This document shows positions 17,400 to 56,879 of a stretch of DNA of 64,000 nt, in pieces. Each line of letters starts with the position of its first letter. The first letter of the stretch is position 1. A program made the translations under genes and the position numbers. The notes under the pieces were generated by a model. The model saw nothing but the letters and a program-made list of their open reading frames with translations, was not told where the DNA came from and did not search any database. The DNA is from Polytrichum commune (lineage: Eukaryota > Streptophyta > Polytrichopsida > Polytrichales > Polytrichaceae): positions 4,340,001 through 4,404,000 of the forward strand of contig OX485809.1 in assembly GCA_950295325.1 (NCBI GenBank), in the 5' to 3' direction.

Positions 17400-18680
17400 A
17401 GGGAAGCTAGGACATGAACGATGAGCGGTGAGCGATGAGTCCAATTTTAGGGTTTTCTCACACATGTTTAGGGGTCACATTATGTGTATGGGATGAAAAT
17501 TTATTATGTTTCAATTGTATGTAATAAAAAATTACAGTGATCACAAATGATGGGGGCGTATTACCATGTAAAACTGGGAAAACTTTCAACCAAATGTTGA
17601 TGCTTAATACAACAATCCAAAACATTTACGTGTGTAACCAAATATGTTTCCAAATTGCTTTTGTCATAAATTGTATGGTGAACACTTCACTAGCATCAAT
17701 ACTAGCACTCAACAATGTCAGCCAACTCCAGTAGTCACATGACCTCGTTGTGGGTGTACATCGGAGCATGAATGAACTTGTCGTTGTCGTAATCCACAGG
17801 TTGCATAAAACTTTGAACACATAATAAAGGTGTTTGCAGTACACCCATTTACCTTTCTTTCCCATAGCATGAGAGGACATCTTCGTGAAATCCAAGCAAG
17901 TGCATTGTGGGATGTTGCCAATTGTTACATGGTAGGCATTGTCCTCCTTTGAGACGATGTTGATTATAATTTCAAATCATGGGCAAGGAATGGTTGTCGC
18001 TCCAACAACATAGTTATCCATCTATGAGTCCAGCGCTCTTCCATTTGTTTTTGTGATCAACCATTGGTGTTGCTAGACTCCTTCGCATTGTCATAGAAAA
18101 CCTTGAAGTTGGGGGGAAGTTCGGGTTTGGGGCACACAAAATGTGACCAAGGAATGGAAAGTGTCGTAATTGTTGAAAGCCTACAACGAGGAGACAATGC
18201 TTGCATATGTTACAACTGGAATTTGGCGTCCTCTAGCGCCAACACCTCCTTCACCGACAAATTGGTGTCTATATTCATAGGCCACATGTTGGATGATATA
18301 GGCCAATCCAATACATAATTCCTATGTTGTCATTCACACAATGTTTGATGTCGTAAGGGAATAACCAAAACTCATACTCCACATTATTGGTGGAACAAAA
18401 TTCTTTTTTCAACCCTTTGTACGTTGGTGCAGGGGTGCCATGTTGGCATGTTTTGACTTTCACATTGCACAAAGTCCATGTATTGGCATGCATTAACCAA
18501 CATCTTTTGGCATAGTTGGGTGACAATCTTGCAATGTGCCATTGTGAAGGAGGGCAATCTGTCTCAAACATTGATGTGATATGCGCCACACCATGTTTTT
18601 CTACATTCAACAACTCCTCTATGCATTGAATTGTGCCTTGCATACAAACAAAGTATTCTAGCAAGTTGTGCAATGCACAC
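17400..18680 (-). pseudogene. SWIM-zinc-finger transposase remnant, copy 1
   Basis: The minus-strand reading includes HIARLSPNYAKRCWLMHANT (about 18540-18480), CSTNNVEYEFWLFPYDIKHC and, near 17870-17800, CTCLDFTKMSSHAMGKKGKW followed by VYCKHLYYVF. The last part has the CxC...CxH spacing of a SWIM zinc finger, the domain found after the catalytic core in Mutator-like and FAR1-type transposases. Several stops and frame changes interrupt it. A second copy in the opposite orientation lies at 27010-28550. The catalytic DDE core was not located. Confidence 0.6.
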
Positions 18681-27009: not shown

Positions 27010-28550
27010 ACCATGTGTACATCCCTCAAAGACTGCATAGAGGAGTCGTTGAATGTTGAAAAGCATGTTGTTGCGCATACCACATCAGTGCTTGAGATGG
27101 ACTACCCTCCTTCATAATGACACGTGGCAAGATTGCCACCCAACTTTGCCAAAAGATGTTGGCCAATGCATGCCAATACATGGACTTTGTGCAATGTGAA
27201 ATTTGGAACATGCCAACATGGCACCCCCACACCAACGTACAAAGGGTTGTAGAAGGAACTATGTTCCACCAACAATGTGGAGTATGAGTTTTGGTTATTA
27301 TTGTAGAACATCAAACGTTGTGTGAATAACAACATAGGGAGTACGTGTTGGATTGGCCTATATCATCCAACACGTGCTATGTGAATATATTTACCAATTT
27401 GTCGAGGGAGGAGGTGTTGGCACTAGAGGACGCCAAATTCCAATTGTAATGGATGGAAACATTGTCTCTTCGTCGTAGGCTTTCAACAATTACGACACTT
27501 CCTATCCCTCAGTCGCAATTTTGTGTGCCCCAACCCAAACTTCCACCCAACTTCAAGGTTTTTAAAGGCGGTACGAAGGAATCTAGTAGCACCAATGGTC
27601 GATCACAAAAACAAATGGAACAACGTTGTACTCATGGACAAGTGATTATGTTGTTGGACTGACAACAATTCCTTGACCATGATTTGAAATTGTCATCAAC
27701 ATCATCTCAAAGGGGGACGACGCCTATTGTGGATCAGAACAATTGGCAACATCCCATAATGCATTTGCCCGGATTTCACAAAGATGTCCTCTCATGCTAT
27801 GGGAAAGAAAGGTAAATGGGTGTACTGCAAACACCTTTACTATGTGTTCAAATTTTTATGCAACATGTGGATTACGACAACGACAAGTTCATTCATGCTC
27901 CAATGTACACCCACAACAAGGTCGTGCAACTACAGGAGTTGATTGGCATGATTGTTGAGCGCTAGTATTGATGCTAGTGAAGTGTTCACCATATAGTTCA
28001 TGACAAAAGATGTTTGTAAACATATATGGTTACACGTCTTAACTCACGTCGGTCTCCTCCGGAGACCGAAGTTGTTTCTCTTCTCTGTGGTTTCGTGTTA
28101 CTGGTTTCTTGTGTCTAAAGTGTCTACTCTCGAAAGGGGGGAGTAGATCTTTTCCTCCATACCCTTGTCCTGTGGGCATGGGATTGGAGGTGGATCGAAC
28201 AGACACTTAACTCACGTCGGTCTCCTCCGGAGACCGAAGTTGTTTCTCTCTTGGTTACACGTGTAAATGTTTTGGATTGTTGTAATAATAATCAACATTT
28301 GGTTGAAATATTTTTTAGTATTACATGTAATAGGCCCCCACCATTTGTGATTATTGCAAGTATTCATTACATACAACTAGAAAATAATGAATTATCATCC
28401 CAAATTCATAATGTGACCCCTAAACCCATGCAAGAAATCTTTGAAATTGGACTCATTGCTCATGTGTTAGTGCTCACCGGTGATCTATTACCGCTCACCA
28501 CTCACCGCTCATTGTCATCACTTATGCCCTAGTTTCCCTCTACTTAGGCC
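27010..28550 (+). pseudogene. SWIM-zinc-finger transposase remnant, copy 2
   Basis: This is the inverted partner of 17400-18680. Readable pieces are CIEESLNVEKHVVAH, HANTWTLCNVKF, CSTNNVEYEFW and a SWIM-like stretch (FTKMSSHAMGKKGKWVYCKH, about 27775-27835). The first SWIM Cys pair survives as CIC. A Ser/Thr/Pro-rich segment (26800-27000) precedes it here but not in copy 1. Stops and frame changes are frequent. A 214-bp mobile element has inserted at 28038, with the homology to copy 1 resuming after it. Confidence 0.6.
28038..28251 (+). mobile_element. 214-bp hairpin element with 11-bp target duplication
   Basis: TGGTTACACGT stands on both sides (28027-28037 and 28252-28262). The flanks together restore the SWIM transposon sequence of copy 1, so the insertion boundaries are exact to a base or two. 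A 44-bp segment is repeated at both ends (28038-28081 and 28206-28249; period 168). Each copy holds the perfect stem TCGGTCTCC-TCC-GGAGACCGA. The inner part can also pair (TCTACTC with GAGTAGA-type arms; CCATACCC with GGGCATGG). The whole is homologous to the 3' end of the 12.2-kb retroelement at 31680-31840, read on the opposite strand. It has no coding capacity. I interpret it as a SINE-like or 3'-end-derived parasite of that retroelement lineage. Confidence 0.8.
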
Positions 28551-28599
28551 ATTTTATAAATGTGACCAATGACTAGTAGAAAAAAATGATATACAATTT

Positions 28600-29075
28600 A
28601 TTGTGATCATGGTTTGTGGTCCAAAGACCATTACCAAGAGAAAACCATGCCACATTTTAAAAGCCTTGGTAATGCGCCATAATGTAAAAATTGAACTTAG
28701 ACCAAGATGCAATGATTTTTAATGAATATGAAAAGAAAAACAACTAAAACTAACCATTAAAAATATATACATAATACAAATTTAGAAGTTGATAAAACAT
28801 AATTTCTCTTTAGCATGGTCACCCTTATTTTTCGTTGAGACAACTTATTTGGGTTCTCTCACCGTAAAATCCAAGTGACCACCAAACATTGTTCATTTTT
28901 GGACATGTAAGGCTCCATGTCACTTTCTCATCCAATTTTTGACATGCCTAACCATGGCCACTTTTATTTTAGGTGACATCATGTAAAATGAAATGAGACT
29001 GCCACTTATTTCTCAATCGATGAGAGATGATCATAATCATTGGTCACTACATTAATTACCCCAATTAGTGTGTGT
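28600..29075 (+). repeat. Dispersed repeat 'R', uninterrupted copy
   Basis: Landmarks are GTCCAAAGACCATTACC, AAAGCCTTGGTAATG, GACCACCAAACATTGTTCAT, CATGTAAGGCTCCATG, GCCACTTTTATTTTAGGTGAC and GACTGCCACTTATTTCTCA, ending near ATTGGTCACTAC. The same order recurs at 59500-59830. At 31330 and 43889 it appears split by the 12.2-kb insertion. It is non-coding and of unknown class. Confidence 0.75.
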
Positions 29076-29079
29076 GTTT

Positions 29080-30955: not shown

Positions 30956-31329
30956 TGTTAAAAAGTTAAGGATATAGGTACGAACAACCATTATTTTATA
31001 GGGGGGTATTACTTTCAATTCTCTTCTTTTTTTCACATGCTATCATTATAAAATTTTCTACTTTGGGTTAATAGAAAATGGCTTGCATTACTTATAATTC
31101 CAAATTACCTATTATTCCATACCCTATAGTACTTTAAAGATGTCCAGTGCCATTTTTGATACCCTATATTACTCTTAAGTTCATTTATAATTTTTTGTCC
31201 CCATGTTTTTAAAATACCCTATCATTTGTTCGCACATATATTGCTACTCCAACCAATGACTACCCCCCCGAGCCCGTTTTAGCCACGTTGATATATTATA
31301 GTATGACCAAGTGTTGCATGCGGTGAAAT

Positions 31330-31667
31330 GATTTAGGATCTAAAGTGGTCACGGTTGGAAGTCCAAAGACCATGTCACTTTTTCAAAGCTTTGGTAACCC
31401 AACGGAGAGTGAAGGAAACTTAAACCGGGGTATAGTGTTTAAGAAAGAAAGAAAAAAATCAAATTGAGATCTTTCTAAAACTTAAGTAGTGTTTCAATGA
31501 AATCATGCTATATATATAGTATATTTATCTTTAAAATATGTTTTATTCTTCTGATGTGGTATCTTGTTTGGGATTTCTTGTTGCGAAATTTGAATAACTA
31601 CCAAACATTATTCATTTATGAACATGTATGATTCCATGTTAATTTCTCATCCGTTTTCTTAACATGT
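31330..31667 (+). repeat. Left part of repeat 'R', interrupted by the retroelement
   Basis: GTCCAAAGACCATGTCAC, CAAAGCTTTGGTAACCC, AACTACCAAACATTATTCAT and CATGTATGATTCCATG correspond to the first two thirds of the R copies at 28.6 and 59.5 kb. The homology stops at the target duplication 31668-31679 and resumes at 43889. Confidence 0.8.
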
Positions 31668-31679
31668 TGCCCATGATCA

Positions 31680-31840
31680 GATAGATAGAAACTCCGGTCC
31701 CTTTTAGGGGCCGGCGTGAATAGAGTGTCCGTTCGTAATGCCAACAACCCGATGCCCACAGGACATGGGGAAGCTGGGACAAAACTACTCTCCTCTTTCG
31801 AGGATGGACACTATAGTAACCAAGAAACAAATAACGTGGG
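31680..31840 (-). repeat. Structured 3' end of the retroelement
   Basis: The stem CCGGTCCC-TTTTA-GGGGCCGG lies at 31692-31712, 12 bases from the insertion edge. Upstream in sense direction a second palindrome, GTGGGCC-GATCAT-GGCCCAC, lies near 31837-31857. The sequence between (ATGCCCACAGGACA, CTCTTTCGAGGATGGACACT, CAAGAAAC) matches the 28.0-kb element read in reverse. Stem sequences differ between the two elements while pairing is kept (CCGGTCCC/GGGGCCGG against TCGGTCTCC/GGAGACCGA). This suggests the fold is selected, most simply as the site recognised by the reverse transcriptase. Confidence 0.65.
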
Positions 31841-32121
31841 CCGATCATGGCCCACGGCGGTGCATGCCTTTTAGGTATAATTAATGTTTTTGTTATGAGA
31901 GTGAATGCCAAGTCATGATTCGTCGGTTGGTTGTGGGAGGATGTTTGAGTTAAGACGTTCCAGGTTCGATTTCAGTCGAGTCCGTATGATCGTCTAAAAT
32001 GTAACGCGTGACTTGGCGCTGCAAGTGAGTAAAAGGCAGGAAATTTGTACCAACCAACCGGCACCAATCCCTCATTCTGAGCTGTAAATAGATACTAAAT
32101 ATTATATAAGTTTTTTGGGTT
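31841..32121 (-). other. 3' untranslated region of the retroelement
   Basis: This lies between the last readable ORF2 stop and the structured end. GTCGGTTGGT (31922) and ACCAACCAACCGG (32050) form an inverted pair. GGTTCGATTTC near 31971 resembles a Pol III B box, but no matching A box was convincing. Confidence 0.5.
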
Positions 32122-32860
32122 TTATGGAGGGTCTAAGTTTTGGGGGAGCGGTTGGTGGTTTTCAATTCTCCTCTTATGGAGGAGGATGGACATGGCATAT
32201 TGTATTGCAATGGTATTAATGTTTTTAAAGGTATTTTTGATGGTAACCAGGGGTATTTTGAGATTTTCTTCTAGTATTTTCATAGATGGGATGTGGGCCG
32301 TAGCTCAGGCCCCAGCTGTGATGACAATAAGTGGTTCGATTTTCCATCCTCTGGAAGCGATACTATCAATCAAAGGTTTGTATTTGTTGTTTTTTGCTTC
32401 TATTGTTTTTGGGGAAAATCTGTCGTTACAATACGTGAATTCAATAAATTGTATGGTGAGGTTAGGGTCAATGTCAATGGGAGGGTCATTTTGATATGGT
32501 AATCCTTTAACACAGAGTATATCAGGTCGAAATCTTGCGTTGCAATGACATCTTTGTGTGTTACATGTGCAGGGGAGTAGCCAATTGGGGACTGTATTTT
32601 CTTGGGGGTTATTATTGAAGGTACCGGCATTCATGAGAGTAAAACATCGGGATTTTTCGGACGAGATTAGAAGCTTCCTAATTTCTCCGACTGCTTTGTT
32701 ATGTCTTTTAATTCGTAGTGAGTGTATGTGTTGTTGGTTGCATTTCAGTAGAACATGTAGCCAAGTGTTTGGATCGTTTGAATTGCATATAGGGCATGTG
32801 ATAGAGGGGTACCTCTGGTGACCGAAGAACATTTGTTTTCTAGCATTACCCATGTATGTT
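32122..32860 (-). pseudogene. ORF2 C-terminus: zinc knuckle and restriction-like endonuclease
   Basis: From about 32800 the sense strand reads CPICNSNDPNTWLHVLLKC, a CCHC-type knuckle as found before the restriction-like endonuclease of R2-group elements. About 80 residues on come RPDILCVKGLP, then IQFIEFTYCNDRFSPKTIEA and KNNKYKPLIDSI. The RPD, E and K..KY positions fit the PD-(D/E)xK nuclease core. A TGA at 32305-32307 interrupts a GA-x-AT stretch that continues with HIPSMKILEENLKIP and INTIAIQYAMSILLHKRRIE, as expected for the end of this domain. The domain would nick the target DNA. A stop also separates it from the RNase H part (near 32862). Confidence 0.75.
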
Positions 32861-33640
32861 CATGTGCGGAATTTAATAAGGCAGGATTTTTGTTTGTCTG
32901 TGATTAAGGGATTTGTCCAGAATTCGTTGGACAGTTCTTTGTCAATGTCTATATTTTCTGTCCATTTACACGTGTTGGGGGTTTGTGTGGCCATGATTGC
33001 TATATTGGTTTCCCTATCATATTTTTTAATTTGTTTTTCTAAGAATCTTACTGGGCCTTTGTCTGGGACGTCTGCCATCGAGGCCCAGACGTCCTTTTGG
33101 TAATAGTACGGGATGGCGTGGGCATGTTCGTATGGGTGGATGGCAATTCTGTGTTCTAATTCTAACCCGTCTTTTGCTAGTTTATCCGCTTTTTCATTAC
33201 CGTCAATGTTGACGTGTGCTCTGACTTTGTATAGTGTGATTGGCTGTGTACGGTCTTGGAGGATTTTTACCATGGAGTTGAGTGTGGTTTGGTCGGGGTG
33301 ACTATTATGGAGAGTGGGGTGTTTAATTTGTGTGTTGAGTAGGTATAATACGTTTAGACTGTCTGTGAATATGAATGCGGGTTCATTAGGGAATTTTGTA
33401 TTGATGATTCTTAGTGTTTTGTGTATAGCCATCATTTCTGCACGTAGTATGTTTTGATGCCCATGGAGTCTTTTGGCGATATTTAAGCCTTTGGGGCTAT
33501 AGATACCGTATCCAGCTCTTTCTCTTCTTCATACCCCAGGGGCAATTTCTTTGGGTTTTATAAAGGAACCATCCGTGTAGTAGCTGAACTGGGGGTGGAA
33601 TTTTAGCGGTAGATTAGTGTGGTAGTTTGGAAGTTGTGGG
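32861..33640 (-). pseudogene. ORF2: RNase H domain
   Basis: The sense strand reads YYTDGSF (about 33570), GYGIYSPKG, NILRAEMMAI (about 33450), FIFTDSLNVLYLLN (about 33370), ITLYKVRAHVNIDGNEKADK (about 33200). The acidic set D, E, D and the D of NEKAD, with HVN in the substrate loop, are the RNase H catalytic residues. All are present. An in-frame stop lies between GSF and GYG (about 33528). RNase H would remove the RNA template after first-strand synthesis. About 190 further residues to 32861 form a linker of unknown function. Confidence 0.85.
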
Positions 33641-33766
33641 GTAGGGGTATTATTGTGTGGGATTGTATTTGGGTAGTTTGATTTGGCCCATTTTTTACTA
33701 GGGTTAACGGTGATGTTTGGAGGGGTGGGTGGTGCAGTTTGTGTGTGACTTTGTAGTATTTGGAGG

Positions 33767-34888
33767 TTATTTGCTGTGTCGTAATTTCATTTGTTCGTAG
33801 GTGCCTATGTTATTGTTTTGGTGATGGATACAAAATATTTGCATGGTAGATGGTTCTTTTTTTGTGATATTAAGCTCGGGGGGTATTGTGGATTCCTCAT
33901 ACGTGATTGTATCAGCGGCGAAATGGGCAATGACGTGTGTATCTGGGAATGGGCCTGTGTATGGGTTGGAGTTTTGGTACCAATTAGTATCCGGAGATAT
34001 AAGTATAGTGATTGTATATGGATCATTTTGGGCCGCTATGCGCACCCAGTGAATAACTTGTTGTAGGTCTGTTGTATTATGAGGGTGTGCGTAACCAATT
34101 CCTTGCCATTTATGGTCAAACGCTTTACCTAGGGATCCAAATATTATGTCTCGCGAGAATGGTGAGTAGAATTGGATGAATTGTGTGGGGCATGTAACTG
34201 GGGATGAAAAATATGAGTGGTTAATATTGAATGTTGTAATCAGGAGATCTAATATTTGGGTTGGTATTGTATATTGGGCTCGTTTGAGTGGGTCATTTTT
34301 TGGGATACGGTATTTGTACCTTTGGTATAACCAAATAATTTCAGTTTTGAACGATTGGGTAGATGGTTCTAGACCGTGTGTGTTGTTTTTTGCCAATTGG
34401 TATTGTTTCCATAGCCATGTTAGTCTAGCTTTCGGGATGGTAATGAGGTGTCGGCCATTATCTTCGTATATGTGAGCGACATCGAATTGTGTTTGGATGG
34501 TATCAGAGTTTGTTTCGATGTCGTTTTCTGGGTTGCATTTATTAATAGAGATATGTGCTAGTGGAATTATTGTGGTTGGTGTGACGTATCTTGTGTCTCT
34601 ATGTTGTTCTGTGGAGAAGAAGACATTAATTATGTTTGAAAAATGTTTGTGTTGTCTTTCTTTGTAGTAATGGATAAGTAGGTCTGTGTTGTGATTACAT
34701 GTGTTGGCTTCACAGTAGGGGTATAGGTCCCTTTGAGTTCGCCATTTGTTATATGTGTTGTTATTTATTGTAGTCCATTGACATAAGTACGACGTGACTG
34801 TTCTTTTTATTCCGTTATGGTCATTGGATTGTTTTTGTTTATGATCGATTATTTTGTGTATGGAGAATTGTCGGGGGTCTTTAAGCAT
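33767..34888 (-). pseudogene. ORF2: segment resembling a PCIF1-type methyltransferase domain
   Basis: This 373-codon uninterrupted stretch lies between reverse transcriptase and RNase H. Its C-terminal part reads TQFIQFYSPFSRDIIFGSLG, then GIGYAHPHNTTDLQQVIHWV, TITILISPDTNWYQN, FPDTHVIAHFAADTITYEES and TMQIFCIHHQNN. The order of an F-YSPF.RD..FGS-like block, a short x-N/H-P-P/H turn, a hydrophobic strand ending in P-W and a terminal hydrophobic strand parallels the methyltransferase fold of PCIF1, the cap-adjacent adenosine N6-methyltransferase. Here AHPH stands where PCIF1 has its catalytic NPPF, so activity is doubtful. The assignment is from pattern memory and is the weakest domain call in the element. 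Confidence 0.4.
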
Positions 34889-35260
34889 GTTCTTGGGAGG
34901 AGGGGGTAGAGGGGGGTGGGGATGTTAGGGGGGTGTACGGGGGCGGTTGGTGGGTGTGGTAGGATATTGTGGTGTCTTATTATATATTTATTTTTTAGGG
35001 ATCTTGGTGGATGGTGTTGTTGGCATGGTAGGGGGCATTGATTACAAAGGGGGGTGGCAAAATAATTGATTAGCTATGTTAAGTGCACTTTTGATAAGTT
35101 TAGAAAGAGTGGAGTGGTAGATTTTGAATTCGTCCGGGTTTATTATAGTGGTACCATTAGGCATGGTAATTTGGTCTAGTGTGATTATATTATGTACAAG
35201 TAGTTTGTGGAGTAATTTAAGTGAGGTGTTGGGATTTAGTCCATGAAGCATTTGTGCTTC
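34889..35260 (-). pseudogene. ORF2 linker, with clustered stops
   Basis: The same frame as the flanking parts continues through this stretch, but stops fall near 35042, 34985 and 34925. The low-complexity run rich in Pro and Thr (about 35000-34900) was probably a flexible linker. Confidence 0.5.
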
Positions 35261-37200
35261 CTACATCCATGCAGTTTCAAGTGGGGATGGGGTTAGTAGG
35301 AAATTGTTTATTGTACTTTTTAGGTGGACTCCGGCTTTATGTTTGAGCAAGAATAATGTTCTAGTCATGGGTGATCTAATGCAGTGGTGATATTTAATGC
35401 GGGTGATTTCCTTAGAGCCCCCGTATTTGGCGAGTATGAATTGTAGTAGACCAACATATATTTTTCCAATTCTACCTTTATCATTGAGGGCGTTTTGTAG
35501 TTGTTCTCCAATGCATCTTAAATAGGCATTTTGTAGTGAGAATGCTTCGATTCCGAATAGGTTGTGTGGGAGTTGTGTAGCGATGTTAGATGTGCATTTG
35601 GATATTCCGCATATCATTTTGTGAAGTGCTATGATTTTTTTATCGAGTTTTTTGATAGCTGGTATTGAGTATGGCACTGCGTAAAAGCTGTATGCTATTC
35701 CAGCACGTATGACTGTATCTGCCATGTTTATTTTTTGTTTCATAGTAGCTGGGCATGTTACAAGGGTTTGACACTGTTTTATTACTTTAGCTGTAGTGGT
35801 ATTTATTTGCGTTTTTCATTTGAATGATGGTGCAAGATTTATTCCTAGATACGTGTATGGTTCATGTTGGTTTAAGACTAGTATAGGTTGGTTTCTGTAG
35901 TTGATATTGGTAGATTGAATTAGGGCTTTAAAGGTTGTGGGGTGAAGTTTGGATTTGTTTGGGCATCCAGTTATTGTGCACTTGGGTATTCTAAGATCCA
36001 TTTCTGCCCATTCGCAGAATTTATCTAGTTTGTTGAGTTGTGTTTGTAGTGTCTCTAGTTTATTGGCGATTGCTGCTAGGTCATCTGCATATGTTGCTGA
36101 TGAGATTTTAATTTTAGATGTACCAAAAATATATCCATTATTCCCTTGTTGTAGCCATCTGAGGAGGGGTTATAGGAATATGATAAATAGATATGGGCTA
36201 AGGGTATCACCTTGTATTGTACCTCTTTGAATGGGGATTGGTAGGGTTTTACCGAAGTGTTCACCAGTGAATATTGTTGAGGATTGTGAATATATGTTTC
36301 CTATGAAATTTATAGAGTCAGTGGGATATCCCAGATCTTTTATTATGGCTAAAAGTCTGGCGTGATCAATGGAGCCGAAGGCGTTTTTGAAGTCAATGTA
36401 AAGGATATATATATCTTGGTTCGTGAGTCTTGCGTTTTCAAGCGCTGCGATTAATAGTTGGATTTGTCTAGAAGTATTTCTCTCTGCTCTAAACCCTTCT
36501 TGACTATCGTGTAATATTTGGTATTTTTTTCCATACGTTGATAGGATAGAAGTTAATGTACTCGTGTAAAATTTATATATGATGTTAGCTAGTGTAATAG
36601 GTCTATGGTTTGTTAGTTGTGATGGGTTACGTTTTTTGTATAGTAAAACTGTTAGACTGGTTTTCCATGATGCAGGGATTTGTTTTTGTTTATAACAATG
36701 TTTAAAAAATAAGAAGAGTAATTTATGGAAGCGTGGAGGCATGTTTTTTAGAATTGAATTGGGTATTTTGTCTGGGCCTGGGGCTTTGTTATTACTTAGG
36801 TTTTTAAGACAAAAGTCGTATATTTCTTGGTCAAAATACGTGTGTAGGGGGGTTTGGGGTTCTCCTCGTTTGTCAATGATGTATCCGTTTAAGTTATGCC
36901 ATGGATATTGCCGGACTCCACATGTGGAGTGTAGTGGGTGTGTATTTTGATATTGGCATGTGGGAATTGTAGGACGGTTACTGATGAATTGTTGCGTGTA
37001 TATTGCTGCTGTGATGTCTTCTGGGTTAGTTAATATGTTGTTTTGTCTATCAATGATGGAGTCCAGGGGTGAGGTTTCAGTGTTCTTGAAGACTTTTCGA
37101 TTTATTTTTTTGGGGTTTTTTTCATACATTTGACGGTATTTTGATACGGCCTTTAGAATGCAGTCTTTGGTGTATTTTGTGGTGATTTTCCTGGCTTCTT
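35261..37200 (-). pseudogene. ORF2: reverse transcriptase
   Basis: Motifs in sense order are NNKAPGPDKIPNSILK (about 36770), NHRPITLANIIYKFYTSTL (about 36590), QEGFRAERNTSRQI, LYIDFKNAFGSIDH (about 36400; first catalytic Asp), GTIQGDTLSPYLF (about 36215), ATYADDLAAI (36100-36071; catalytic YADD) and YTYLGINLAP (about 35840). These are motifs 1-7 of non-LTR reverse transcriptases. A thumb region with LFGIEAFSLQNAYLRCIGEQ follows. In-frame stops lie at 36170, 35816 and 35261. A frameshift near 37190 joins it to the upstream linker (EARKITTKYTKDCILKAVSK). All catalytic Asp residues survive. This enzyme would copy the element's RNA at the nicked target. Confidence 0.93.
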
Positions 37201-38813
37201 TATTTGCATTTTTGCGATGGTTGCTATGGCATCAACCCATTCAGTAGGAGGTGCCGTTGTAACATGTGGGTGTGGGATGTTTGTGTGTTGATGGTTTCGT
37301 ATATCATTTAGAATGGGGTGTGCTTGCCAGAGTGGATCGTGTTGTGCAATATATATGGTTTTCCTAATGAGGTGATATGTGTTGAGGTGTCTTTTCCATT
37401 TTCTCGGAAGTTTGCGTGGCAAAAACCCATCTTGTTGTGATGTTCTGTTCGTAAGGTTGGGTACTGGGTCTGCTTTACAGGTTTCTTCAATTGTTTCTGA
37501 AATTTTGTATACAATGTGGTCGAATGTTGTACAGGCTTCCGCCCATTGATCCGGGCTTAAGTGTTGGTGGTTTTCGAGTAGGGTGGTAAGGGCTTTTATT
37601 TGTGCAGAGTTTTCTTCGAAGAATGTTATGTTGAATTTTTCAATGTTTTCTGGTGATATTGGGTTTAGTATTCTAATTGGTGACGTGTTTGTGGGGGGTG
37701 GGGATCTGGCTATAAGGGTGTTGTGGGGGATATGTAGTACAACTGGATAATGGTCTGAGTTTAGATTCATGTTTGTGTTTGTGGTAGAAATGAATTTGTT
37801 GTTGTCTGGTGAGTGAATGTAGATCCATCTATTAGACTTGTTGATGTGTAATTATAGCCTCCTTGTCTGGAGATGCTAGTATTAGTTGGGATATATTCTA
37901 GGTTGAGTGATGCGGTGAAAATTTTCCATTGGTAATCTTCTTCTTGTGGAGGGGTGTTAATGTTGTTATTTTGTCTGCCTCTAAGTGCGATATCTCGGTT
38001 AAAGTCCCCACATAATGTATACATGTGATTGGGGTGTATAGTGATTTCGTTAGTGATTTCGTTCTTAAGGTGTGGAATGAGGCATGTGTCTTCTAAGTGT
38101 TTAGGCATGTACATGTTTATGATTAGCCAAGGTATTAGTGGATGGTTGTTTATTTTAATTATTTGTAGGTATGGAGATATATTTACTGGCGTGGGAATTT
38201 TGGTGATATTCCCAGATAATGCATATTTCTTGTGGATAAGCATGAGTAAGCCTTCTCTTCCGGGGGTATAAGGCATTATTTGTTGTATGCATATTGTGAG
38301 TGCATGTGTGTTGTTGAAAATGAGTTTAAATTCCGGAAATAGGTTTTGTATGCATTTTGTAGATTTATTTGCAATTAGTTTGGTTTCTTGAATATGTATG
38401 ATTGTTGTGTTGTTTAGCGAGTTGTTTATTAGGCTTTGTAGGTTTGGTAATGATGTATTGAGTGATGACACATTCCATGTTATTATGTTTGTTTCGTACT
38501 CGGTGTCGGTGTTAATTCTTGGGGTTGGTGTGGGAGTAGTTGGGGGTGGGGGTGGGTGTGAATATTCGTTGATGCTTTCTAGGCATCGGAGTGCTTCGGT
38601 GATGAATTGATTTGGGAGGAATAGAAATTTATTTTGAAGGGTGATTGGTGTTGGTGTAGTATCTTGGTTGTGGATAAATTCATATATGTCTGTGTATATT
38701 GAATTTTTTGGGTATATTATAGCTTGATTATTTTCTACAAACGTTGTGTAGGGGTGAGGTGTTGATATATGCCTTTCGGGGGGGTTGGTGAGGTTGGCCA
38801 GTCTGATAATCAA
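37201..38813 (-). pseudogene. ORF2: APE-type endonuclease and linker
   Basis: The sense strand reads NIITWNVSSLN (Asn, about 38490), IHIQETKL (Glu, about 38400), IINMYMPKH (Tyr, about 38120), LCGDFNRDIA (Asp/Asn, about 38005) and LNSDHYPVVL (Asp/His, about 37760). This is the full catalytic series of the exonuclease-endonuclease-phosphatase (APE) family in non-LTR elements. A one-base frameshift around 37830 lies between GGYNYTSTSLID and the SPDNNKFISTTNT segment. A stop near 38823 separates the domain from the N-terminal part. About 190 residues of linker lead to the reverse transcriptase. Confidence 0.93.
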
Positions 38814-38822
38814 TGTGTTCGT

Positions 38823-39815
38823 TCATATATTATTAAAGTGGTAATTTTGGGGTTGGGCTAGTATGTTATTGCATGTGTCTATTGAGGGGTGGATGGTGAT
38901 GATTAGAGCGTATAGCATATGGGTTAGTGGTGATTGCCTTTGTGTTTGGATATATTGATGTAGATGCGGGTAGGTGGTTATTGCTTGAGGGTGTAGTGGG
39001 TGTTTGTTTTTTAGTATGGGGGCAAATGTATTTGCTATGTGTTGGTATTCAGGTTGTAGTTTTATAGTGTTTGGAATGAAGTAGATGTGGGCTTTTTTTT
39101 TTGGTGTAGCAGGGTGTGTATGTAGGATGTTAGGCATTGGTCCGGGGTTGGATTCTATGTCCCCGCATTTTAGCAATTCTAGTTTGTTAATAAAGTAGTA
39201 TCCGTGGGAATGGAGTGTTTTTGGATTTTTCATGTTTGTTTTTAGATATATTATGATTGTGAACTTGGTTGTAGTAAAGATGTTAGGTATAGTGGGTATG
39301 ATGTTTTCTATTTGTTTGGGTGAGAAGTGTGAGTTTGTATTTTTTATAGATTTTTGGCTTGTTATTGAGTTAGGTCTCCAGTTATTTATGAAGTGGTATG
39401 TGTTATTATTTGTGTGGCGAGGCCGGTAGGCTGAGGCCATTGTATTTTTTGGGTGAGGTTGGTATTTTGAATGAGGGTTTAATAGGTGTTTGATGTTGAG
39501 GTGAGGTTTATTTAAGGTGAGTAGTTTATATTTAGTTTTTGTAAATAGATTAGGTAAGGCAATTATTGTTTTTTGTGTATTTTTTGGGAGGTAGTGTATA
39601 GGTTTAGTATGTTGGTGGGTAGGCTTTGTGATTGTGTTAATGATGGGGTTGAGGGAGTGGTAGTGTATATATCTTGTTAGTTTTATTTTGAGGCGAGGCC
39701 GGTAGGCCGAGGCCGTATTGTGTACTTTGTTGTATTGGATAGGATATTGTTGTATTGTGAGTAAATAGATTTGTTTTTGTGAGGTGTTGGGGGGGTTTTC
39801 TTTGTGAATTTTATG
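38823..39815 (-). pseudogene. ORF2 N-terminus with a 2A-like ribosome-skipping motif
   Basis: The frame appears open from about 39815, the first ATG being at 39440. LLKCGDIESNPGP lies at about 39176-39138, matching the 2A consensus D-x-E-x-N-P-G-P, at which the ribosome skips the last peptide bond. Such motifs are known near the N-terminus of ORF2 in trypanosome L1Tc and several animal non-LTR elements. Here it would release roughly 100-220 residues from the enzymatic polyprotein. The segment MASAYRPRH at 39440 repeats TASAYRPRL 92 codons upstream. The rest is basic and rich in Asn, Thr, His and Pro, with no recognised domain. The TGA near 38823 interrupts this copy. Confidence 0.7.
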
Positions 39816-39950
39816 TCATAGTATTCATGAATACTATAGGTAGGGTTTTATTTTTAGTATATATTAATAATTTAATTGTGTTTTTATTTTTAGTATATAA
39901 ATATACTATAAGTAATTTATAATTATACGCCGCCGGGATGTTTGTCGAAA
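39816..39950 (-). other. ORF1-ORF2 spacer with a 20-bp palindrome
   Basis: AT-rich stretch with several stops in the ORF2 frame. ATAGTATTCATGAATACTAT at 39818-39837 is a perfect palindrome just upstream of the ORF2 opening. TTTTTAGTATATA-like words are repeated around 39853 and 39888. Confidence 0.6.
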
Positions 39951-41570
39951 TTAGTTTGTCAAGTCCATATTGTTTTCAATTTCCGATATGTCTAGATGAG
40001 CCGCTTCGATAGCATTCAAGGTAATCTTCATTTGCCTTTGAAGGAGTTGTATTTGGAGCTTGGAATTTTTGTTTGACTCCGCTTGCACATGGTCGGCATA
40101 AACCTTAGTCTCTTGCACAATCTCACCTTTAAGGTTTAGGGTTTCCTTTCGTATTTCATCCGTCCCCTTTTTTACCGCTGCTTCTACCATCTTGTTGAGA
40201 TCTTTGTTGGTGATGTTTTGATGCGGTCCATTCTCCAGAGCTTGGATGATATTTGCAAGTGCGGTGTTCACGTCTGAAAATCCAAGTCTAACTAGCTCTT
40301 CTTTACTAGGTGCATTTATCCCGTCTAGACTTTTTGGATGGGGGGTAAATTCAACATATTTACCAAATATTTTTTCATTTTTCTTAACAAATTTCTTGTA
40401 GACAAACGAGTTGAGGCATTGGACATTGCATGAGCCCGTATGCTTCCCGTTCTCAAGTCTAAAGTAAAAACCGAGAACATTTAGTTTTCCCATGCATTTT
40501 CGGTTTCCTTCTTCAATTTGCATGGTTGTTTTTACCTTATTGAGGTTACGGGCAATTAGAATGAGTGCATTCTTTCGGGCTTTATCATCTTCTGAGAGTT
40601 TTTCGTTACTTGTAAAGTTTACATCTACTATTTCATTGAAAAACGAAAGTTTGAGTGCTTTAATTCTTTTGGCTTCCTCTGGAGAGGGTGCTTTAATCCA
40701 AACAAACTCTGCATCCGCCGATTTTTGCACATTTGTTATTTCAAAGTCAAGGCCTCGTCGAAATCCATCCCCAACTATTTCTACAAACAAATCATACCAT
40801 TCTTTACCCTTGATTGATGGGGTTGTGACTTTGACGGAGAGCATGGATGCAATTGCAATGGTATCAAAGGATTTACACACTTTGCCTATAACATGTGTAA
40901 ATCGGCCTAGCTTGAGGATGAAAGGTCTTAATCCGCAGAGAAGGCCATATCCATCTATTTCAGGGTTTTTAAGGTGGAGTTTAATAATTCCACTCCATCT
41001 TTTGGTCCCATGAAAACAAAGGACAGCTAAGGGCTCTCCTAGGACTTCCCCGACCTCTATCCTCATTGTTTTTAGTCTATCCTTTGTTAAGTTGAGTATC
41101 ACATCTCTATCCAATTCTATTCTTTCAATTTCAAAATGGATAGATATGTGATAGTCCAAAGCAAATCCATTGTCACCCACTTCCACATCTGAAGGAATCT
41201 GGGTGAGATTATAGTGCATTCCCTCCTTACCATCCGTTCGTATAGAAGGCCACTCTTCTTGGGCAACGAACGGAAAGGAGGGAGATGACTCCACCATTTC
41301 ATGTGCTTCAGACTCATACATACCTTTTTTGACTAACTCAGTGAAAGAAGGTGTTTGAATGAGAGGCATGTTGGCAAATTTTGCAATTGTGTTCATAGCT
41401 TGAAAACCAAGCCAATAGGGGGGGCGTGTTCTCTCAGTGGGTGCTATTCCTTTAACCTTTTTTTGACTTGACAATATCACATCAAACACTGGACGTTTTC
41501 CACTTGTAGAATCTATATTTTAATTTTCAAACAACTTACGGGATGATGAGGTTGGAGTGATGGTTGCCAT
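39951..41570 (-). pseudogene. ORF1 of the retroelement, RNA-binding-like with C-terminal coiled coil
   Basis: The natural start is probably ATG at 41570 (MATITPTSSSRKLFEN). One TAA at 41520 interrupts, after which 512 codons (41489-39951) are free of stops. The middle part alternates strands and basic residues. Residues about 310-395 (ALILIARNLNKVKT, LGFYFRLENGKHTGSCNV, YKKFVKKNEKIFGKYVEF, PHPKSLDG) look like an RRM-type fold as in many non-LTR ORF1 proteins. The last 70 residues are Glu/Lys/Gln-rich with heptad-like spacing, a probable coiled coil for multimerisation. Its position directly upstream of ORF2, in the same reading frame and inside the same target duplication, assigns it to the element. 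It would bind element RNA. It is far less decayed than ORF2. Confidence 0.65.
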
Positions 41571-43876
41571 TCTGATATAAGCAAAACAAACAAACGTTTT
41601 GTACTTTAGTTTTGAATGAGGTATACTTCTTATTTTCTTTCCTCTAATTCCTTTCCACAAATTAAGTTGTGGGCCTCCTAGGAATTGAGAGTGAAAGAAG
41701 AAGTGATTTGCATGTTCTAACATCATATGAGTACTAGTATGAGTACTACTTGCATTCATCCTATGATAACACCTTTTCCTATTCATATGAGTCTTCATAT
41801 TAGTATTTACAAATTGGTTGTAAGTGCTCTTATGTAGATTATGATTTGTCCCAACTCTAACATTCCATACATCTCCTAAGCATTTGAGGCAAGTATAACT
41901 AAAACCACAAGCATTTACCGTTACTACCACGGATCCATTATTTCTAATGGAACATTCATTTATGATATGAACATTAAGGTTGTTATACCATACCTTTGGA
42001 TTTATGACGTACTTATATGTGTTTTTGAAGCAAGAGTTTGTAAGGCATTCCCATGTGGTGTGAGAGTTGACACTATGAGAGTATATCCAGTATGGTGTGG
42101 CTAGTACTAGCCACATAATGATAACAAGGTAGGTTGCATATGCAACCTTCATTTTACTTACTATCCTAACAAACCTATCAATGCTATGATGTGTCTAAGA
42201 CTATGTGTGTGCCTATGTGCAAATAATGAGAAAACAAATTAACGTGTAAACTTACCAAGCGGATGAAGGGCAGCAAAACGACAGTCAGCAACAGCTCCAG
42301 CAGCAACACTTCGCCTTCAATCTCCTTGATGTCCCAACAACTTCTTTTCTTCCCTAGGATAGGATGGCCCTCCAGCAAGTTGAGTTGCTCGTAACGCCTA
42401 GTAGCTCCAGCAGCTCCAAATTTGGTTGGCTCTCCAATTCCGACCAGCTCCAAAACTTTGAGTTGTCATAAGCTCCAGAGGCTCACGGCTCCTGGTAGCT
42501 CTCAGCACGCGGCTCCCGCTTGTAAGTAACTTCAATTTCCTCCTTGGTAGTACGTGGTAGCTCTTCTTGGCAGTAAAGCAGCAGACACAACACTTCTTGG
42601 GTAGCAGGTCAGAATTCTCCGCAGCAGTAGGTCAGAATTCTTCGCAGCAGCGGCAGCAGGTCCGAGGTCTTCTTCCGCAACAGCAGCAGCAGGTCCGAGG
42701 TCTTCTTCCGCAACAGCAGCAGCAGGTCAAATCCTTTCTCCGCAGCAGGTCAAAATTCTCCTTTGTAGCGATAGTGGGTATTAATAAGCAACACCAAATT
42801 TGTGTCTCTGGGTGTCTTTGTAGATCACACCAGCAGACGTCTTCGGATACTAACAACAAGGTACCAAACTACATCAGATCGCAGCGTTAAGTAGGAGCTA
42901 GCACAGATTTACAGCAGGGACTTTGTTCAGCCTAAAATCCCTGGTCTCAAAGGTTTCGCAATGTCTTCAGATCAACAGAGAAAAGGGGGGAGACGTTGGT
43001 GTACAACATAAAACAGTCTCTGTGCAATAGACTGGAGAGATTCGATTTCGGCGAGCAACTTCGGTGTGGTGGGAGGAATTTCAGTGTGGCAGAGCAGATC
43101 TCATCAGCGATCACAGAGTGCCTAGGTTGTGGAGTGCCCAGATCTTAAAGCGAGATCAGGGTGTTTACTTCGTACGCGCAGATTGATAATGCCAGATCGC
43201 AAGATGGTTGTAGAGTGCCCAGATCTCTGAGTACTTCGGTGTTCGGCTTCGGTAGTCTGCTTCGGTGCAGTAGTTGAGTACTTCGGTGATCTGCTTCGGT
43301 GGTCTGCTTCAGTCTGCAGGGGTAGGCGTTTGGTGGTGTAGATTCACAAGAGAAGATCTTCTGCAGGGTACTCGTGGAGTGAGTGCGGAGTGATCTCAGA
43401 GTGTAGCGGCAGAGGCTTCGGTGAAGAATGCTTCGGTGTAGTGGCAGTAGATTGCTGCGGTGTAGAGTGCTTCGGTGTAGCGGCAGAGGCAGGTGTTGGT
43501 GCTGAAGTTTTCTCAGGTGTAGATCTTCAGCAGCGGCGTGGAAGTGAGGACTGAATGATCGACGAAGAGATGGACTGCTGCTTTGGCCCGCTTGTTTTAT
43601 AGAAGGTTTGCAGATGTGTGGGGCCGTGGCTCTTCCATTGCTGAAGGGGCACGTTCGTATCGGGGGTCCGGAGAAGTCGGTGACTCGAGGTCGGAGGAGC
43701 AGCATGCCCACGGCGTGCCGCTTCAAGTCCGTCCAGGTGTCTCCAAGAGCTTCTTTATCCCAGCGATCGCCGCTCACCTCTGGCTCAGGAGCTCCGCATG
43801 GCCTCTCTCAGCGCTCCAGTCATATGCACATTGTTATAGATAATATTCTCTTGTTGCTTGCTACATCATGCTTTAA
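41571..43876 (-). promoter_or_regulatory. Leader region of the retroelement, possible promoter and intron
   Basis: The minus strand has TATAAAAC near 43600. A GC-richer leader follows with degenerate CTTCGGTG/CTGCAG repeats (43200-43510) and 33-bp CAG-rich repeats near 42660-42740. A donor-like GGTAAGT occurs at about 42257. A very good acceptor (TTTGTTTTGCTTATATCAG) ends one base before the ORF1 ATG at 41570. Together they allow a leader intron of about 690 bp. A 210-codon frame (42152-41520) runs through that interval. It starts with a signal-peptide-like stretch and reads into the ORF1 frame, and whether it is translated is unknown. Confidence 0.45.
42600..42760. repeat. Tandem 33-bp CAG-rich repeats
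   Basis: AGGTCCGAGGTCTTCTTCCG recurs at 42658 and 42691, separated by CAACAGCAGCAGC. Shorter GCAGCAG-GTCAGAATTC relatives flank it. It lies within the leader of the retroelement. Confidence 0.8.
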
Positions 43877-43888
43877 TGCCCATGATCA

Positions 43889-44005
43889 CTCTTATTATTG
43901 ATGACCTTGTGTAAAATGAAGTGGGACTGCCACTTATTTCTCAGCTCATCAGAGATTTTAGAAAGCGGTGGTCATGGTCAATGGTCACTAGTGTAAATCA
44001 ACCCT
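43889..44005 (+). repeat. Right part of repeat 'R', beyond the retroelement
   Basis: CTCTTATTATTGATGACC, GTGTAAAATGAAGTGGGACTGCCACTTATTTCTCA and GGTCATGGTCAATGGTCACTA match the last third of the R copies at 28.6 and 59.5 kb. It completes the copy that begins at 31330. Confidence 0.8.
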
Positions 44006-45043
44006 ACGTAGTGTGCTTGTAGCTTGTATAGCCAAGGCGGTTGCATAAACTTTGGTACTTAGGCCCTAAAGGTTGAGGGAGTTTTTTTTGCGGGTCAAGG
44101 CAACCACTTATGCTTGTCCATGTGAGTGAGGATGATTATAATAAAATATTTTGAGTCGGGGCATGCGGAAAACTGAAATATCGTGCAAACAACATCAACT
44201 GTACAAATATGCCATACGTACGGTCAAATCCACCACTAGAGGTAAAATTCAAACTATTAAGTAAAATGAAGACGGTGTTTTTCAGGGGATTTTGGAGGAT
44301 TTTGGGGCTTGAGCTTTTAATGGTTAGTATGGGCATACAAATGAAATGGAATTGGTTGTTAATTCTAGTGAGCCAAAACTATTTATGGGACTAGTAGAAG
44401 TACACCAAGGTGGAGTCAAAATGCCTAATTCTAGAGTAGTGTAGTACAGTGGTATTCTTTCAAATAATGGCAAATATGACTTGATGATTAAGTTGGTAGA
44501 AAGACTGGAAACTACCTAGCATTACATTCTTGAAATATGAAACAAAACCTTTGTCTAATAGAGTTTTAGAGGGGACAATCCAACACAAAGTGTGCATGGT
44601 TTCTAACTACATTGTCCGAGCAAAAATGACATACTATATTATCTCTAGGGATTGGGCTAGAGGCAAACGATTAGTGGCATCCATGGAGGTTGAAGATAGA
44701 AACGTAGGGAATCCTTTATAGCATTATGTACAATCTCTCAAATGCTCGGCCTTCAACCTCCCAAGTACAACAACAAAGACAAAATCCTAGACTACTCCTT
44801 TCTTTGTTTTCTACCAACAATATTTGAGCATACCAACTAAACCCTAAGGTATATTTTACATACCAACTATCATGTTTATTCAAATAATATCATAAAATAC
44901 TTATGCTCGATGCTATAAAATTTATTGTATCAACACGCACCAAAATGATTTAAAATTGCAGATTTTGATTTGCTAGACTATTAATACTCAATTGAGCATT
45001 GACAAGATAGAGAAAAAAAGATATGCCATATTTTTATTATGCC
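44006..45043. other. Non-coding stretch without recognised features
   Basis: AT-rich sequence with only short open frames. No repeat family or gene was recognised. Confidence 0.45.
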
Positions 45044-55700: not shown

Positions 55701-55847
55701 TTTTGAAGCAGGCCGACAAATTTCAGACTATCATAGAGCGAGCTGGCGAGTTCTAGAAAGCGAATGCTCAAATCATTTCCTCACTCCGTGCGTGAAACGC
55801 TGGAGTGTTGTATTGGAAAGAAGACTGACCCTAACCTTCCACCCTCC

Positions 55848-56879
55848 ATGGCGACGAGCATGCTACTTGGGCATGACCTCTCTACGGTAATCCAATGCGA
55901 GAAGAAGGGCACGAAATACTACGATTTCGACTCATCCGATCCGCAGCCACCGGAGAAGATTGTTGCAACAAATGGGGCCAACCTCGTCCGCCTCCGCCTC
56001 TGGGTTAACCCTCCCACAGGGTTTAGCGACCTGCCAAGCGTCTTGCAATTTGCAAAGAGAGCAAAGGCTGCAAATCTCAAATTGCTCCTATGTCTGCACC
56101 TCTCAGACTACTGGGCCGATCCTGGGAAACAAACCATCCCAGTGGCATGGCAGGGTATGGATTTCCAAACCCTAAGTACAACGCTTGCAAGCTACATCAG
56201 CCATGTGATCCATAACCTGGAGAATCAAGGCACTCCACCATTCATCGTTGCAGTTGGAAACGAAATCTCTAATGGATTCTTATGGCCCATGGGGTCACTC
56301 AGCAACACATCTCAGTTCACATCGTTGCTGAAATCAGGGTTAAGTGCTGTGAAGAAGAAGGGGATTGCCACCATGGTGCACATCAACAATGGCCAGGACC
56401 AGAGCTTGGTCACATGGTTCATGGATCTCATGCTTGCAAATCAGGTGAGCTTTGATTACCTTGGGCTTTCCTTTTACCCTGACCTTGGGGCTTCCCTCAC
56501 TGGGCTACAAACCTCCATGGCTACCGTTGCAGCTCGATACAACAAGTCCATGGTGGTGGCTGAAACTGCTGATTACTACACACCGGCACCGAATAGCCTT
56601 GATACACAAGAATCTTCCTTGTCTGCTTTGGTGAAAGCTGTGAGCGCTGTTCCTAAAGGTTTGGGAGCCGGTGTTTGTTACTGGGAGTCTGGATGGTTGC
56701 CTTTGGGTGAAGCTTACCCTGGTGAAGGAAATCATTACTGGGGCCGTGCCCTTTGGGATGAGAGTGGAAATCCTCTCCCTGCCTTGCAATGCTACAAGGC
56801 TTACCAGAAGTGTTCTGTGCAGCCTGTGATGCGGAGTAGGCATCACCACTTCTGGGGAGACAGGCATGAAGAGTTGTAA
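55848..56879 (+). CDS. Arabinogalactan endo-beta-1,4-galactanase (GH53 family)
   Basis: The product has 343 residues from the ATG at 55848. The frame opens 28 codons earlier (ATG 55764), after an in-frame TAG at 55734. Family landmarks are LGHDLSTVIQCEKKG and KYYDF at the N-terminus, ANLVRLRLWVNP, LLLCLHLSDYWADPGKQ, FIVAVGNEISNGFLWPMG (the Glu of NE is the acid/base), MVHINNG, FDYLGLSFYPD and MVVAETADYYTP (the nucleophile Glu). These cover the whole (beta/alpha)8 barrel, so the gene looks complete and intact. GH53 enzymes cut beta-1,4-galactan side chains of pectin. No signal peptide is visible at either ATG, though a spliced 5' exon could supply one. No introns interrupt the barrel. The family is known mainly from bacteria and fungi, so transfer is possible. 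Confidence 0.88.
   Translation: MATSMLLGHDLSTVIQCEKKGTKYYDFDSSDPQPPEKIVATNGANLVRLRLWVNPPTGFSDLPSVLQFAKRAKAANLKLLLCLHLSDYWADPGKQTIPVAWQGMDFQTLSTTLASYISHVIHNLENQGTPPFIVAVGNEISNGFLWPMGSLSNTSQFTSLLKSGLSAVKKKGIATMVHINNGQDQSLVTWFMDLMLANQVSFDYLGLSFYPDLGASLTGLQTSMATVAARYNKSMVVAETADYYTPAPNSLDTQESSLSALVKAVSAVPKGLGAGVCYWESGWLPLGEAYPGEGNHYWGRALWDESGNPLPALQCYKAYQKCSVQPVMRSRHHHFWGDRHEEL

Follow-up and report, generated by a model that had tools for sequence, protein, structure and literature searches.

A dead copy of a probable Dualen-like non-LTR retrotransposon with a PCIF1-like domain in the moss Polytrichum commune

Contig OX485809.1 of the Polytrichum commune assembly GCA_950295325.1 carries, within the 64,000-nucleotide stretch analysed here (positions 4,340,001 to 4,404,000, forward strand; the window), a 12.2 kb insertion in a host repeat, and the question it raises is whether this is one complete retrotransposon without long terminal repeats (non-LTR), where its ends lie and what kind of element it is. 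We find a real insertion, very probably a dead member of a Dualen-like non-LTR retrotransposon family that is large and still young. The original prediction, made from the letters of the window, had missed both the kind of element and the broken state of this copy.

The insertion and its target site

The insertion is delimited by the following features, positions being those of the window.

31668..31679, no strand: target-site duplication, element's 3' side (sequence and shuffle control)
43877..43888, no strand: target-site duplication, element's 5' side (sequence and shuffle control)
31680..43876, minus strand: retrotransposon body, 12,197 bp, bounded by both duplications
31326..31679, plus strand: interrupted host repeat R, left part (BLAST of rejoined flanks)
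43889..44020, plus strand: interrupted host repeat R, right part (BLAST of rejoined flanks)

The 12-mer TGCCCATGATCA has exactly two mismatch-free occurrences in the window, at 31668-31679 and 43877-43888, and 60 shuffles of the 5' region yielded exact matches of no more than 8 bp, against the 12 observed. We reconstructed the pre-insertion site by rejoining the flanks with one copy of the duplication and compared it by BLAST within the window, where it aligned as a single piece across the junction both to R at 28584-29077 (E 6.6e-39, 63% identity) and to R at 59599-59835 (E 1.4e-25, 67% identity), the remaining two rows being the flanks themselves. As these R copies are only 63-67% identical, they show the continuity of the site and not its exact letters before insertion. 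A 12-bp duplication at both ends and an R copy cut exactly at the insertion, both claimed beforehand, are thus borne out, and 31680-43876 is a real, complete non-LTR insertion with a 12-bp target duplication.

Other copies of the family

The assembly measures 408 Mb, with 406 Mb in seven large contigs of 42-78 Mb. Four LEAFY-domain matches in it exceed the cut-off, compared with none in 14 control genomes; LEAFY indicates a streptophyte and seven chromosomes of this size suggest a Polytrichaceae moss, and on these two grounds the land plant of the original prediction is plausible. Flanks of nine copies were at hand and the duplication was tested on seven, the 3' end of C4 being unplaced and C7b being interrupted. 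One close copy, C1, lies on the contig of that name; it is 12,702 bp long, 96.5% identical to the window copy over 10.7 kb and co-linear with it from upstream of open reading frame 1 (ORF1) to the 3' tail, it shares the same 3' end, has its own perfect 12-bp duplication, TGGCCCCATAGG, and both ORF1 and ORF2 are open. The claim that the complete element had moved as one unit is supported by the duplication, the empty site and this co-linear copy with a duplication of its own.

Duplications of 12 bp were found in all seven copies tested, exact in five (window, C1, C2, C5b and C2b), at 11/12 in C5 and at 11/12, alternatively 12/13, in C6. The shuffle control covered the window copy, C1, C6, C2, C5b and C5; in the first five the longest exact match was 8-9 bp in 60 shuffles of the 5' side, but for C5 at least one shuffle reached an exact 11, so its duplication is weak when taken alone and counts against the reading. 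In element orientation all seven duplications start with T, provided that the C6 one is taken as 13. Where the tail and the target have letters in common, the edge can shift by a few bases. Relative to the tail end set for each copy, the best match begins 2 bases earlier in C2b and 3 bases later in C2, and for C5b a duplication of 15 with one mismatch is an alternative reading.

The 3' end of the window copy comprises two features.

31694..31714, minus strand: 3' hairpin CCGGCCCCTAAAAGGGACCGG (paired changes on both sides in divergent copies)
31680..31688, minus strand: 3' tail CTATCTATC (sequence and duplication test)

The hairpin followed by (CTAT)n is the common 3' end of the window copy, C1, C6, C5b and C2b, and the more distant C5 and C2 end in (CT)n and (CTT)n. 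Three pairs of the C2 hairpin are changed on both sides relative to the window with pairing kept, judged by reading and with no statistical control.

A reverse transcriptase (RT) search of the assembly, in which 115 of 1847 candidates were scored, found matches of many different identity levels on each of the seven large contigs, and 8 of the 115 scored copies hold open frames of at least 2,000 aa without stops. Comparison of ten RT loci showed seven pairs with >99% identity over 4 kb, which points to recent movement of the family. In the window copy itself ORF2 is interrupted by in-frame stops and changes of frame, and ORF1 by a stop; judged by its reading frames this copy is dead. An altered genetic code was considered for these stops and dropped, as the sister copies are open in the standard code.

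Reading frames and domain order

The coding part of the window copy is laid out as follows.

39951..42194, minus strand: ORF1, open at 41519-39951 (522 aa), with an upstream frame at 42194-41520 separated by a stop
38823..39815, minus strand: N-terminal part of ORF2 with 2A/StopGo motif (ORF reading)
39138..39164, minus strand: 2A core GDIESNPGP (motif reading; relatives carry the motif too)
37767..38822, continuing in another frame at 37153-37851, minus strand: apurinic/apyrimidinic (APE)-type endonuclease (below the Pfam cut-off in this broken copy)
36170..37231, minus strand: RT, first part (RVT_1, E 4.4e-17)
35261..36169, minus strand: RT YADD block and following region, stop-broken (ORF reading)
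34722..34864, minus strand: chromodomain-like region (Pfam Chromo, E 0.11, below cut-off)
33770..34579, minus strand: PCIF1/CAPAM-like domain (Pfam PCIF1_WW match of 42.8 bits against a cut-off of 31.1, at about 34094-34387; AHPH in place of NPPF)
32860..33786, minus strand: RNase H (Pfam E 1e-12 within 33528-32860)
32305..32859, minus strand: restriction-like endonuclease (RLE; CPIC..H..C, RHN, RPD..E; fold model)

ORF2 thus reads 2A (StopGo) motif, APE endonuclease, RT, PCIF1/CAPAM-like domain, RNase H and likely RLE, and ORF1 lies upstream of it in the seven copies compared (window, C1, C6, C5, C2, C4 and C7b). ORF1 has no Pfam match, and in C1 it lies in a single 747-aa open frame with a hydrophobic N-terminus. 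Such a hydrophobic, signal-like start (window 41520-42194; MKVAYAT..LV..WLVLATPYW in C1) is odd for the ORF1 of a long interspersed element (LINE), and it recurs in several, not all, metagenomic relatives (some of P0123-P0153). Across ORF2 (window 32000-40000) the GC skew on the plus strand rises to 0.65, the sense strand being A/C-rich, and it ends near the ORF1 boundary. No convincing relatives came up with a profile built from the chromodomain-like region, which is kept as a weak assignment. When the chromo-PCIF1 alignment was run as a profile against the PDB, the one match lying beyond the PCIF1 part was judged to be chance, and the decision was left to the fold comparison. Rfam (at the gathering threshold) and tRNA searches of the window found nothing.

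The window GDIESNPGP fits the 2A/StopGo consensus D(V/I)ExNPGP (available text of PMC12846837). Seven copies of this genome were inspected for 2A: the window copy, C1 and C4 have it, and NPGP was flagged in C6 and C2. A strict 2A occurs in 24 of the 121 relatives described below, all of them within the 78 that have at least 700 aa preceding the RT; it sits 887-1180 aa ahead of the RT match, and it was found zero times in 200 rounds of shuffled proteins.

A PCIF1-like domain without its catalytic motif

PCIF1_WW also scores above the cut-off in copies L018, L015 and L013, and one broken L012 piece falls short at 29.8 bits. General Pfam scans showed no WW domain, no dedicated search for one having been made. 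An AlphaFold2 model built on 30 sequences (mean predicted local distance difference test score, pLDDT, 70.6) is mostly at pLDDT 74-94 over residues about 31-200, with a dip to 58, and poor at both ends. Compared with the PDB, its six top matches are all human or zebrafish CAPAM/PCIF1 (E 4.7e-8 to 1.3e-6), the next having an E of 0.072, and the predicted fold is therefore that of the CAPAM methyltransferase.

The catalytic NPPF is replaced. In the alignment with zebrafish CAPAM (a weak sequence match, E 0.075) AHPH falls on NPPF, and this position reads AHPH in four of five copies and AHPN in the fifth; some metagenomic relatives have N-P-E-Y there and many further relatives have other residues. 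PCIF1 is usually inactivated by mutating the N and the F of NPPF (available text of PMC10544176).

Selection was assessed by codon comparison of C1 with C6, which gave ratios of non-synonymous to synonymous change (dN/dS) of 0.09 for the APE endonuclease (EN), 0.05 for the RT, 0.07 for the PCIF1-like domain (dS 0.53) and 0.07 for the RLE, the stretch before 2A being looser at 0.51. Against C2 the PCIF1-like domain gave 0.07 at a dS of 1.2; the C5 and C4 comparisons, being saturated, count for little. Between C1 and the window copy the ratios rest on few changes and span 0.11 to 1.5, in keeping with a window copy in decay. By these codon counts the PCIF1-like domain is under purifying selection despite its replaced catalytic NPPF. 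Cap methylation has probably been lost and the domain kept for another purpose, for example binding the capped 5' end of RNA.

The second endonuclease and the constant duplication

The C-terminus of the window copy carries CPIC..HVLLKC, KRHN and RPD..IEFTY, and the RLE-type motif pattern is present in 46 of the 121 relatives, many of which are incomplete. Among 29 aligned rows PD is found in 29, RHN or KHN in 28 and E in 28, conservation that is partly by construction, because 25 of the 28 aligned relatives were selected for matching the pattern; P0105, P0112 and P0115 are the only independent rows, and P0105 deviates at two of the three sites. The zinc-finger part of this alignment is unreliable. 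A model of the region (mean pLDDT 74.6) has R2 retrotransposon proteins as its first and second PDB matches (E 0.012 and 0.045, probability 0.96 and 0.92), two more R2 proteins stand among the 50 rows listed, and many others are nucleases such as BstEII and viral cap-snatching endonucleases, which we take to be of the PD-(D/E)XK type. Beside the selected rows, it weighs against an RLE that the fold matches include no E <0.001 and have a template modelling (TM) score of about 0.4, and that the region has no Pfam model and no PDB sequence match. From the motifs and the predicted R2-like fold, the C-terminal region is likely a restriction-like endonuclease.

Transposition may proceed as follows. 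A capped RNA would be translated into the ORF1 protein and the ORF2 chain, which 2A would split in two; ORF2 would nick the target and prime reverse transcription where the RNA ends in hairpin and tail. The other strand would be cut at a distance of 12 bp, perhaps by the second endonuclease, and on this proposal that would give the constant duplication length. RNase H would remove the template, and at the 5' end the RT may switch to a different RNA, from which filler and leader exchange would result. One version, in which the two endonucleases act as one complex with a fixed cut spacing, we hold only tentatively: it agrees with the 12-bp duplications in all seven copies tested and with purifying selection on both endonuclease regions, but these are only seven copies of related families, known from their sequence, and a single endonuclease could also give a fixed stagger.

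The 5' end and exchange of leaders

Two features make up the 5' end.

43818..43876, minus strand: 5' filler, 59 nt, non-family (55 nt, 43818-43872, matching another dispersed repeat, plus TTAA)
42195..43817, minus strand: 5' leader (TATA-like stretch, by eye; comparison with other copies)

The 55-nt filler matches a place on contig C3 at 98% and one on contig C5 at 86% (L009:6211-6265 and L010:6280-6335); these places resemble each other around the stretch, otherwise have no match to the element, and represent another dispersed repeat family. The leader that the window copy has in common with C6, C5 and C2 begins at about 43799-43817. In C1 and C2b it is swapped for unrelated sequence upstream of about 42343-42362, and the window copy, C1 and C2b have mutually unrelated leaders upstream of about the same point. 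The exact termini proposed originally therefore hold for the window insertion and, in those close family members that were read, for the 3' end, the search for further genomic copies having returned C1 with the same 3' end, but fail at the 5' end, where 59 nt of foreign sequence close the window copy and 5' ends vary among copies, close ones having unrelated leaders. We infer that template jumping or leader exchange among family members may have produced these variable ends. The C6 copy (L011/L012) is a mosaic, its ORF1 being 38% and its 3' 7.2 kb 88% identical to the window copy; in its comparison with C1, dS is about 0.7 across EN-RT and drops to 0.15-0.22 across RNase H-RLE, again as in mosaic copies.

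Differing leaders between close copies, the C6 contrast of 38% with 88%, and a base-composition skew that ends near ORF1 would also suit a composite of at least two nested or fused elements, in which ORF1 and ORF2 did not move together. We consider this improbable and reject it on the C1 copy, which is co-linear at 96.5% over 10.7 kb within its own duplication, and ORF1 precedes ORF2 in the seven copies compared; the 5' exchange is real but lies within the family.

Relatives and classification

The RT-centred protein search gave 164 matches, of which the 120 listed, together with P0003, make up the 121 relatives used (48 named Haematococcus lacustris). Among the matches listed, relatives come from Haematococcus, Pleodorina, Parachlorella and metagenome proteins, with RTs 30-40% identical, and P0002 has the order APE, RT, PCIF1-like, RNase H, RLE. 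The PCIF1-like domain is precomputed (PF12237) on 28 of the 121, and our own profile finds it in 54, none of them among the 48 Haematococcus proteins; Josephin, a cysteine protease, is precomputed on 32 of the 121, 29 of these in Haematococcus. A PHD finger is precomputed in the Dualen-like P0019, P0025, P0030, P0036, P0095 and P0122, and P0036 combines Josephin and PHD with a match to the PCIF1-like profile. An RT tree of 92 sequences (RT stretches of 380-750 aa, from 12 of the 48 Haematococcus proteins and, for this genome, from C4 and 9 of 30 RT loci, among others), built with no outgroup and no reference Dualen, groups the family with chlorophyte and metagenomic proteins of the same plan.

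The element is most likely allied to Dualen, which Kojima and Fujiwara reportedly described in 2005. That original description is said to include a cysteine protease, and Pfam scans of the window pieces and the read-through P0001 found no Josephin or other protease; we therefore call the element a Dualen-like variant and not a strict Dualen. Several observations speak against the assignment. The APE endonuclease exceeds the Pfam cut-off of 27.4 bits in L018 only (28.6) and falls below it in the window copy (14.7) and in P0001 (26.7), the chromodomain is below its cut-off, 2A is degenerate in C5 and was not found in C7b, and in the tree, without an outgroup, the branch to the nearest relative has a support of 0.59.

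It is very unlikely that the element is just an unusually long plant LINE of the L1 or RTE clade. Plant L1 elements have APE and RT, are not known to carry an RLE, and end in poly-A. An RT with APE and RNase H would fit plant L1 too, and land-plant LINEs are tabulated as L1 and RTE in the available text of PMC3747384, in which most listed flowering-plant L1 end in poly-A; we reject this reading on the domains (RLE motifs with an R2-like model, a PCIF1-like domain and 2A), the tail, which is (CTAT)n and not poly-A, and the algal and metagenomic RT relatives, P0002 having the same domain order. Algal contamination or assembly error, to which the green-algal closest named relatives (among the matches listed) might point, has next to no probability and is rejected on the spread of matches, of many identity levels, over every one of the seven large contigs, the window copy moreover lying inside a host repeat, R, that recurs uncut nearby.

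Neighbouring features of the window

A long inverted repeat at 17429-18625 and 27034-28462 has pieces 80-91% complementary, about 1.2 kb per arm and 8.4 kb apart. At 55764-56879 there is an intact 371-aa ORF of glycosyl hydrolase family 53 (E 6.6e-77), and at 2107-2760 a separate ORF has a weak RVT_1 match (E 0.007, below cut-off), perhaps another retroelement remnant.

Significance

Three published statements are touched by this young, high-copy, dual-endonuclease family, which lives in a land plant and has a natural 2A motif and a domain derived from PCIF1: that Dualen/RandI is green-algal only, as it is listed in the available text of PMC4438587, PMC3747384 and PMC8226300, that land plants such as tracheophytes lack DNA methylases encoded by transposons (available text of PMC6338049), and that there is no evidence of natural StopGo use by plant viruses (available text of PMC12846837). 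In the literature searched, which leaves out most subscription papers and preprints, no title or beginning of an abstract among the matches listed holds the combination of Dualen plan, PCIF1-like domain, 2A and moss.

The chief points of interest are the constant 12-bp duplication and the PCIF1-derived domain. The role of the second endonuclease in Dualen becomes testable, and a constant duplication length at unrelated sites offers a direct handle on second-strand cleavage. A more speculative picture, which we think unlikely as a whole, is that PCIF1 was captured early in green-plant history and is now a conserved, non-catalytic module that binds caps or RNA ends and marks the element's own capped RNA, with the two endonucleases as a fixed-spacing pair giving a constant 12-bp duplication at sites without shared sequence.

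Comparison with known systems

With Dualen/RandI of Chlamydomonas and relatives the element has in common APE, RLE, RT and RNase H in one protein and a short tandem-repeat tail, (CTAT)n here and (ATT)n or (CTATTT)n in the algal elements (available text of PMC3747384), and it differs in its land-plant host, in that no cysteine protease was found, in the PCIF1-like domain and in an ORF1 apart from the EN-RT frame. The Dualen-like proteins of Haematococcus, Pleodorina, Parachlorella and metagenomes are similar in their RT, and some have 2A and the PCIF1-like domain as here, whereas in the Haematococcus proteins Josephin is frequent (29/48) and the PCIF1 profile finds none (0/48). The PCIF1/CAPAM enzymes share the predicted fold and the sequence core, but here the catalytic NPPF is replaced and the domain is embedded in a retrotransposon protein. 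In APE-type non-LTR elements of animals and trypanosomes, from which 2A was reportedly described by Odon in 2013, 2A also lies upstream of EN-RT, the clades and hosts being different, and we know of none of these elements with an RLE. R2 retrotransposons, which insert site-specifically and to our knowledge have no APE, are alike in having a C-terminal endonuclease, and it is their proteins that give the best fold matches to the candidate RLE of the moss element.

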